64,000 nt of DNA from Crocinitomicaceae bacterium (GTDB lineage Bacteria > Bacteroidota > Bacteroidia > Flavobacteriales_D > Crocinitomicaceae): NCBI GenBank assembly GCA_018402525.1, contig JAGYIR010000008.1:117501-181500 (forward strand), given 5' to 3'. The notes beneath the pieces were generated by a model. It made no database searches, had not been told where the DNA came from, and saw only the letters and a list, made by a program, of their open reading frames with translations. Positions 1,558 to 2,194 of this stretch are shown in pieces (the stretch's first letter is position 1; each line of letters starts with the position of its first letter). Position numbers and translations under genes: made by a program.

Positions 1558-1589
1558 CGAAAGTCTTACTATCCAAAAGTCAATGACTT

Positions 1590-1702
<113 letters not shown>

Positions 1703-1707
1703 TTAAG

Positions 1708-1739
1708 AGCTCCTCCATTTATTTGGGGGAGCTTTTTTT
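1708..1739 (+). terminator. Intrinsic terminator of the rrn operon
   Basis: The stem AGCTCCTCC / GGGGGAGCT (one G-U pair) has an 8-nt loop and is followed by seven T. It starts six bases after the 5S end, which fits rrn operon termination. Confidence 0.85.
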
Positions 1740-1764
1740 GTGTCCAAGAATCCCTCAGAAGGCC

Positions 1765-1830
1765 TTTTGTACCTCGTAGCTATCGATCTTTCAGATCAGC
1801 TACTCGTCTTCGAATACTTCGTATTCTCTG
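1765..1830 (+). repeat. Palindromic repeat unit A
   Basis: This is the first of four related units at 1765-2161. Its layout is TTTTGTACCTCG, then imperfect palindrome 1 (TAGCT..GATC / GATCAGCTA), then CTCGTCTTC, then hairpin 2 (GAATACTTCGTATTC). The linkers are nearly identical between units, while the hairpin arms differ and keep their pairing. A further TCTTC-hairpin fragment (CAGAA..TTCTG) extends it to about 1862. It contains an open frame on both strands, but there is no sign of translation. Confidence 0.75.
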
Positions 1831-1862
1831 TCCTTTCAGTCTTCAGAAACTACGTTCCTTCT

Positions 1863-1986
1863 GGTACTGCCCTTTTGTACCTCGCATTACCCGATCTTCC
1901 CGATCGGATGCTCGTCTTCAAGAGCTTCGCTCTTTCTGGTGGGAGAGTAAGTCCCTGCCTGTCGACAGACTGGGACGCCACTTTTA
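1863..1986 (+). pseudogene. Broken second copy of the 5S rRNA 3' half, interrupted by palindromic inserts
   Basis: Three blocks identical or nearly identical to the intact 5S occur in the right order: GGTACTGCCCTTTTG (1863-1877), GGTGGGAGAGTAAGTC (1938-1953) and GACGCCACTTTTA (about 1974-1986). In the real 5S these blocks are contiguous. Here repeat unit B sits between blocks one and two, and a short palindrome-containing insert (core CTGTCGACAG at 1960-1969) sits between blocks two and three. The 5' half of 5S is missing. It cannot make a functional 5S and looks like a duplication remnant invaded by small palindromic elements. Confidence 0.75.
1873..1939 (+). repeat. Palindromic repeat unit B
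   Basis: It has the same layout as unit A: TTTTGTACCTCG, palindrome 1 (CAT..CCGATC / GATCGGATG), CTCGTCTTC, hairpin 2 (AAGAGCTTCGCTCTT), TCTGG. It lies inside the 5S remnant, between two segments that are adjacent in the intact gene. Confidence 0.75.
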
Positions 1987-1990
1987 ACAG

Positions 1991-2026
1991 ACCCCAATTA
2001 CTTCGGTAGTTGGGGTTTTGTTTTTT
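1991..2026 (+). terminator. Second intrinsic terminator, after the 5S remnant
   Basis: The stem CCCCAATTAC / GTAGTTGGGG with a TTCG tetraloop is followed by TTTTGTTTTTT. Its spacing after the 5S remnant resembles that of the functional terminator after the true 5S. This suggests that 5S tail and terminator were duplicated together, or that this is the older operon end. Confidence 0.8.
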
Positions 2027-2048: not shown

Positions 2049-2113
2049 TTTTGTACCTCGCATTTACCGATCTTCCCGATCGGATGCTCGTCTTCCAAAG
2101 CTTTGCTTTGTCT
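2049..2113 (+). repeat. Palindromic repeat unit C
   Basis: The unit is TTTTGTACCTCG, palindrome 1 (CAT..ACCGATC / GATCGGATG, close to unit B), CTCGTCTTC, hairpin 2 (CAAAGCTTTGCTTTG). Hairpin 2 differs from B at several positions, yet both arms changed together. Unit D abuts it directly. Confidence 0.75.
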
Positions 2114-2161
2114 CCTCGTAATAACGATCTGTCGATCTATTACTCTAGCGCATTCGCTGGA
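2114..2161 (+). repeat. Palindromic repeat unit D (short variant)
   Basis: The unit is CCTCG, palindrome 1 (TAATA.CGATC / GATC.TATTA), CTC, hairpin 2 (AGCGCATTCGCT). It is shorter than A-C and lacks the TTTTGTA lead and the GTCTTC linker, but keeps the two-hairpin layout. The remaining bases to 2194 show nothing recognisable. Confidence 0.65.
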
Positions 2162-2194
2162 GGGAAAACAATTCAATTAACATTCAAGCTAGCT

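Follow-up and report, generated by a model that had tools for sequence, protein, structure and literature searches.

A probable TLR-type module carrying a 5S rRNA remnant at the end of the rRNA operon of a Crocinitomicaceae bacterium

We analysed a 64,000-nucleotide stretch of the genome of a Crocinitomicaceae bacterium of the Flavobacteriales, Bacteroidota (hereafter the window) and identified, downstream of its 5S rRNA gene, a broken second copy of the 5S 3′ end that is interrupted by two inserts and surrounded by further hairpin units. This feature is likely to be a module of the tRNA-linked repeat (TLR) type, or 5S remnant, ending the rRNA operon, because the TLRs at tyrV and rrnB of E. 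coli are similarly organised and 5S remnants with inserts are known at the ends of rrn operons. Within the literature searched, it is best filed as a TLR-like 5S remnant that is new for Bacteroidota and whose hairpin core is a dispersed repeat.

The broken 5S copy and its surroundings

The whole 3.16-Mb, 19-contig assembly contains a single 5S rRNA gene (by Rfam) and a single 23S rRNA gene. Direct reading of the tail of the intact 5S gene gives TGGTACTGCCCTTTTG (1659-1674), AG (1675-1676), GGTGGGAGAGTAAGTC (1677-1692) and GACGCCACTTTTA (1693-1705). The features from this gene onward are as follows, R1 being a covariance model of the two-hairpin unit and G000 the window's genome.

1589-1705, forward strand: intact 5S rRNA gene, the reference for the copy (Rfam RF00001, 73.7 bits at 1589-1702)
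1706-1740, forward strand: first terminator, AGAGCTCCTCCATTTATTTGGGGGAGCTTTTTTT, from the sequence
1752-1769, forward strand: degenerate inverted 5S segment and unit start, CCCTCAGAAGGCCTTTTG, weak in the window and clear in relatives
1765-1830, forward strand: two-hairpin unit B1 (cmsearch with R1, 81.0 bits, E 2e-16; G000:C4:119265-119330)
1831-1861, forward strand: partial unit TCCTTTCAGTCTTC-AGAAACTACGTTCCT-TCT, from sequence comparison with locus L006
1862-1877, forward strand: 5S block 1 of the broken copy, TGGTACTGCCCTTTTG, helix IV 5′ strand and loop, identical to 1659-1674
1878-1937, forward strand: unit B2, a 60-nt insert (TACCTC...TCT) that interrupts the helix IV loop of the broken copy (cmsearch with R1, 86.1 bits, E 1e-17; model match 1873-1938)
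1938-1953, forward strand: 5S block 2 of the broken copy, GGTGGGAGAGTAAGTC, identical to 1677-1692
1954-1973, forward strand: 20-nt palindromic insert CCTGCCTGTCGACAGACTGG inside GTC^GAC, an inverted repeat
1974-1986, forward strand: 5S block 3 of the broken copy, GACGCCACTTTTA, the 5S 3′ end, identical to 1693-1705
1991-2026, forward strand: second terminator, ACCCCAATTACTTCGGTAGTTGGGGTTTTG / ACCCCAATTACTTCGGTAGTTGGGG..., from the sequence and comparison with relatives
2049-2114, forward strand: two-hairpin unit B3, preceded by CCTCAAAA (inverted 5S loop) (cmsearch with R1, 85.7 bits)
2113-2163, forward strand: diverged fourth unit CCTCG-TAATA..TATTA-CTCT-AGCGCATTCGCT-GGAGG, from fold and sequence only

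The broken copy comprises the last ~47 nt of 5S, distributed over 1862-1986, and 2 nt (AG) are gone at the 60-nt insert. The original prediction described a second copy of the 5S 3′ half with its blocks in order, a hairpin unit between the first two and a GTCGAC palindrome between the last two, followed by a separate terminator at 1991; all of these positions were confirmed to the letter, including the terminator, ACCCCAATTACTTCGGTAGTTGGGGTTTTG. It also took the blocks to be contiguous in the intact gene, which is correct for the last two, whereas the first two are separated there by the AG (1675-1676) that the copy lacks. The feature is wider than the extent that it gave, 1863-1986, with extra units at 1765-1830 and 2049-2114, the partial unit at 1831-1861 and the diverged one at 2113-2163. 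Altogether, the region 1741-2170 holds three full units of ~65 nt (at 1765, 1873 and 2049), one partial and one diverged unit.

A repeat search recovered the blocks as well, and the 16-mer GGTGGGAGAGTAAGTC was found at two places only in the 64 kb, even with three mismatches allowed. The copy lacks the 5′ half of 5S and is therefore unable to make 5S rRNA, and Rfam recognises a single 5S in the region. We accordingly rejected an expanded functional 5S rRNA, for which a complete core including the 5′ half is required. No Rfam family was identified at 1741-2170, where SSRC34_2 (E 0.89) remained far below its threshold. The 20-nt palindrome differs in kind from the 60-nt insert, and an insert related to the palindrome, CCTGTCTGGCGACAGGCAGG, was found within GGTTC^GAGCCC of a tRNA-His copy (L035).

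Several parts of the region have counterparts in relatives. The first-terminator type is located directly 3′ of 5S in unit-free relatives (e.g. L008 and L007), the second-terminator type is located directly 3′ of 5S in genomes G015 and G029, and the partial unit at 1831-1861 is nearly identical to the sequence at the equivalent place in G024 (L006). The inverted 5S segment has an exact match of 6 nt in the window (shuffle P 0.56) and of 7-11 nt at most other loci. Between the 23S and 5S genes, at 1480-1583 of the window, we observed tandem 16-nt repeats (TGACTTTAAGACATTA) together with matching inverted repeats, which probably form a processing stem for 5S.

Architecture and spread of the two-hairpin unit

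The unit consensus, based on 10 copies from the window's genome and relatives, consists of TACCTC, hairpin 1, the linker TCGTCTTC, hairpin 2 and TCT; hairpin 1 has 4 bp, a bulge of ~3 nt and another 5-6 bp, and hairpin 2 has 6 bp and a 3-nt loop. Across the 15 base pairs of the unit, 96.7% of the cells are paired, with 42 double changes and no one-sided change; the covariation score was reached by none of 500 shuffles, and pairing drops to 25-43% when the register is slid. G-U pairs are no more frequent than A-C mismatches (35 versus 55 in A4 and A5 combined). Among distinct hairpin 2 stems the counts are 4 G-U and 17 A-C, and most of the A-C cases are located at the basal pair, so the G-U signal was set aside as evidence for the strand. 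Pairing with no G-U preference is what one expects of palindromes that are kept at the DNA level or repaired as palindromes, although it is no proof of this. The post-5S module is common to G000 and G024, with conserved flanks and quite different hairpin letters; thus, the hairpins turn over while staying paired.

The window's genome contains 13-19 R1 copies, depending on the threshold. Copies were detected in 24 of the 34 genomes of its Crocinitomicaceae genus; at the scale of the family, 30 genomes out of 120, belonging to 9 of 24 genera, carry them. When named genomes were scanned for the pattern, matches were obtained in contigs labelled Fluviicola, Crocinitomix and Crocinitomicaceae, and the matches in actinobacteria and others look like chance. 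With blastn the unit appeared to be local, but the covariance model shows a dispersed family, and we rejected the unit as a local tandem repeat only.

Genome G154 carries six dispersed copies of equal score (61.9 bits). The two of them that were compared, at L135 (1458-1598) and L227 (762-902), are similar over ~142 bp, more than the length of the unit, which suggests recent spread of a larger repeat. In G028, three loci (L102, L103 and L104; C3:524000-542000, C18:57000-70000 and C14:990000-1003000) contain small unrelated genes arrayed on one strand with attC-like modules between them (TAACAGC...CGTTAT, with long imperfect hairpins), and many of these modules hold one to four tandem two-hairpin units. 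These arrays are integron-like and lack an integrase above the TIGR02249 cut-off. We also considered integron attC as the identity of the unit and rejected it, given that no TIGR02249 match above the cut-off was obtained in the 34 genomes and that the best matches lack model positions ~180-238.

Modules beside tRNA and 5S genes

We compared 168 unit copies, at loci fetched regardless of context, with the positions of tRNA and 5S genes. A total of 56 copies follow a tRNA or 5S gene of the same strand at a distance of at most 600 nt, a share that may be inflated because R1 was built mostly from RNA-linked copies, and many copies do not adjoin RNA genes. The linked copies follow 5S (16) and the tRNA genes for His (11), Gln (7), Lys (6), Arg (5), Pro (4) and Ser (3), with one copy each for Asn, Leu, Val and Met. 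For 33 of the 56 (25 of 34 loci), the unit is directly followed by at least 8 nt of the upstream gene's own 3′ part; in a swapped-gene control of 200 trials, the corresponding number was 2.7 on average and 6 at most, and for copies unlinked to RNA genes the same measure gave a mean of 0.8 and a maximum of 4.

The left flank of the unit is often the gene piece located just upstream of the junction, with ~2 nt lost in between (AG in 5S, CT in Gln and CA in Met). Furthermore, 11 of 15 chosen loci have a stretch of the same gene in inverted orientation ahead of the unit (shuffle P ≤0.02), for example, GGATTCAAACC for Arg, CCGGCGACCCT for His and CCTCAAAAGGG for 5S. The module order, namely, inverted gene segment, short left gene block, unit, gene 3′ part and terminator, recurs after several tRNA genes and 5S genes of the genus. 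Tandem modules are mostly spaced by 139-222 bp (~20 loci), and the right-hand junctions vary in position from gene to gene, lying 2-46 nt short of the gene end. The succession of 5S, terminator, unit, 5S 3′ part and second terminator was also found in the independently assembled genomes G020, G023, G028 and G004; many genomes of the same genus have no post-5S module. In no group are the flanks more complementary to each other than shuffled ones, which speaks against general insertion into palindrome centres.

Two loci show more complex arrangements. In the tRNA-Lys 3′ copy of G010 (C3, L111 1449-1815), a forward unit is located near the T-arm and a reverse unit in the acceptor part, and the whole is tandemly duplicated. 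In G004 (C31, L113 1583-10663), a 9-kb gene stretch is located between identical modules of tRNA-His 3′ end, terminator and unit, which shows that the modules can bound larger insertions.

The locus does record the ends of the elements, as expected: the unit takes a recurrent position at many tRNA and 5S loci, and its junctions can therefore be read off against the intact gene. Target-site duplications, by contrast, were not seen; several junctions instead lack about 2 nt. Nor could an empty site be demonstrated in a sister genome, where the orthologues of the downstream gene for a 711-aa protein are located elsewhere and thus provide no exact syntenic empty site. The view of the inserts as invading elements agrees with their recurring ends (TACCTC...TCT) and targets, but searches of the 34 genus genomes with PF01797 and TIGR02249 found no transposase or integrase partner of the unit, and mobilisation by RAYT is unsupported. 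The unit is indeed a dispersed hairpin repeat; yet, rather than elements having struck a broken 5S, the unit, the gene 3′ part, the terminator and, often, the inverted segment travel as one module.

Known systems, competing explanations and meaning

In E. coli, 22 TLRs are present in ten loci, 3′ of tRNA or rRNA genes, and the 3′ end of each TLR matches the last 18-19 bp of the upstream gene exactly (PMC8144298). At rrnB, the 18-bp sequence occurs again after 150 bp, between two terminators, and the RrA/B/F RNAs are read-through transcripts that bind Hfq and CsrA (PMC8144298). Direct reading of the MG1655 sequence showed, at tyrV, an inverted T-arm segment (GGGGAAGGAT), a left block (AAGGTTCGA), hairpins and the 3′ end (AATCCTTCCCCCACCACCA), repeated, and, at rrnB, GAGTAGG, hairpins and AACTGCCAGGCAT; no inverted gene segment was detected at rrnB. 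The modules described here resemble TLRs in their location downstream of tRNA or 5S genes (5S in the window), in the string of hairpins and, at many loci, in a copy of the gene 3′ part, and the two terminators correspond to those at the E. coli rrn operons (rrA, rrB and rrF of rrnA, rrnB and rrnD). Both are tandem, with three full units in the window, one to five TLRs per locus and an E. coli spacing of 150-178 bp (RtT/tyrT repeats and others), and tyrV shares the inverted gene segment and the left gene block ahead of the hairpins. However, the sequences are unrelated and come from different phyla, the core here is a two-hairpin unit with the TCGTCTTC linker that also occurs away from RNA genes, and the 3′-end match varies from about 8 to 25 nt. 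In the window, this match consists of 16 nt and 13 nt split by the 20-nt insert, as against an uninterrupted 18-19 bp in E. coli. R1 had no match at the E. coli rrnB and tyrT loci (E up to 1) and, therefore, lends no support to common descent.

Truncated 5S sequences with large structured insertions, located downstream of the normal 5S and each after a terminator, have been reported in Peptococcaceae and Pseudoalteromonas (Stepanov and Fox 2021, PMC7812874), in a study whose main text makes no mention of Bacteroidetes or Flavobacteria. These remnants share with the window the truncated 5S, the structured inserts, the preceding terminator and, sometimes, occurrence as several per operon, and an insertion in helix IV is among them. 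Unlike in these cases, the insert here is a dispersed repeat that is also present at tRNA loci.

The REP superfamilies CGTC and GTAG (Di Nocera 2013, PMC3733652) are likewise short dispersed hairpin repeats. Many unit copies have an unpaired CGTC before hairpin 2, and CGTC REPs, too, occur without a dedicated transposase (PMC3733652). Nevertheless, a CGTC REP has one hairpin with a stem of 8-9 bp right after the tag, a 4-5 nt loop and a CCA-like tail (PMC3733652), whereas the unit has two hairpins, TTC between tag and stem, a 6-bp stem, a 3-nt loop and a TCT tail, and many copies have CAGTC. We rejected the identity as CGTC-tagged REP on the basis of the two hairpins, the stem length, the spacer and the tail.

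It is nonetheless conceivable, if unlikely, that the units are REPs mobilised by a Y1 (RAYT/TnpA-REP) transposase and that they landed by chance in a 5S copy that was already there. The repeats are short, palindromic and dispersed, with recurring ends and with both orientations in the tRNA-Lys copy (L111), some known REPs sit inside palindromes (PMC3733652), and one PF01797 gene, for a Y1 transposase-like protein in G029 (C7, L253 1733-1779), has a partial unit directly beside it. However, this is the sole credible unit near any of the 17 PF01797 loci, the unit flanks overall are not palindromic, and PF01797 is present in only 12 of the 34 genomes and missing from the unit-rich G010, G021, G023, G024, G026, G004 and G019. 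A RAYT-driven REP was thus rejected as unsupported, with no dedicated Y1 transposase flanked by the repeat and with PF01797 absent from most unit-bearing genomes. Site-specific integration has a low but real probability. In this case the unit would belong to the attachment site of small elements that enter tRNA or 5S genes at their 3′ part by means of a tyrosine recombinase, so that the gene is rebuilt and its former 3′ end is displaced downstream. A duplicated gene 3′ part with its terminator is just what integration into RNA genes leaves behind, all genomes examined contain tyrosine recombinases, and the 9-kb stretch of G004 (L113) is enclosed by identical tRNA-His/unit modules. Yet that stretch has no integrase among its listed ORFs, the modules span only ~150-220 bp and are gene-free, the right junctions are scattered (2-46 nt before the gene end) rather than confined to a single core site, and an inverted gene segment is not expected from integration.

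A functional small RNA gene between the two rrn terminators, its hairpins conserved for a role of the RNA, appears rather unlikely to us. The covariation is strong, G024 (L006) has retained both a unit and the partial unit behind it at the equivalent place after 5S, and the E. coli RrA/B/F RNAs arise by read-through transcription and have Hfq and CsrA as binding partners (PMC8144298); against this reading, G-U is not favoured over A-C, unlike under typical constraint at the RNA level, and many genomes of the same genus have no module after 5S. An assembly artefact joining the ends of two rrn operons might be suspected since only one rrn operon was assembled and each terminator is like one of the two types that G015 has after separate operons, but the same form occurs after tRNAs, and the comparable arrangements in independently assembled relatives (G020, G023, G028 and G004) argue against it; we consider an artefact highly improbable.

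For the TLR-type module that we favour, the 3′ part of a structural RNA gene may have been duplicated together with, or around, the two-hairpin unit. Such modules would then expand by tandem duplication, with a typical spacing of 140-220 bp, and decay, and their hairpins would be kept as palindromes while the letters change fast. More weakly, the unit might be a non-autonomous element that acts on folded DNA by way of a putative enzyme. As with E. coli RrA/B/F, whatever is transcribed from the module would amount to a minor read-through RNA lying between the two terminators and not to a working 5S. Speculatively, and with a chance of being correct that is well below even, enterobacterial TLRs and the Bacteroidota modules could be independent footprints of one unrecognised process, in which a tiny hairpin element duplicates or captures 3′ sequence of structural RNA genes (tRNA T-arm, 5S helix IV) and leaves an inverted segment, a left block, hairpins and the gene 3′ end; the unit family, with its free dispersed copies, would be the first visible mobile form of this element.

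As a caution, pieces of 5S and tRNA genes in the vicinity of rrn operons can be mistaken for pseudogenes or for errors of assembly. The TLRs of E. coli have been in the literature since 1978 and still have no established function (PMC8144298); their origin is an old question, and the Bacteroidota modules provide a second, richer system for asking it. In this second lineage, many independent TLR-like loci and a free core unit make the junctions comparable across genes and species.
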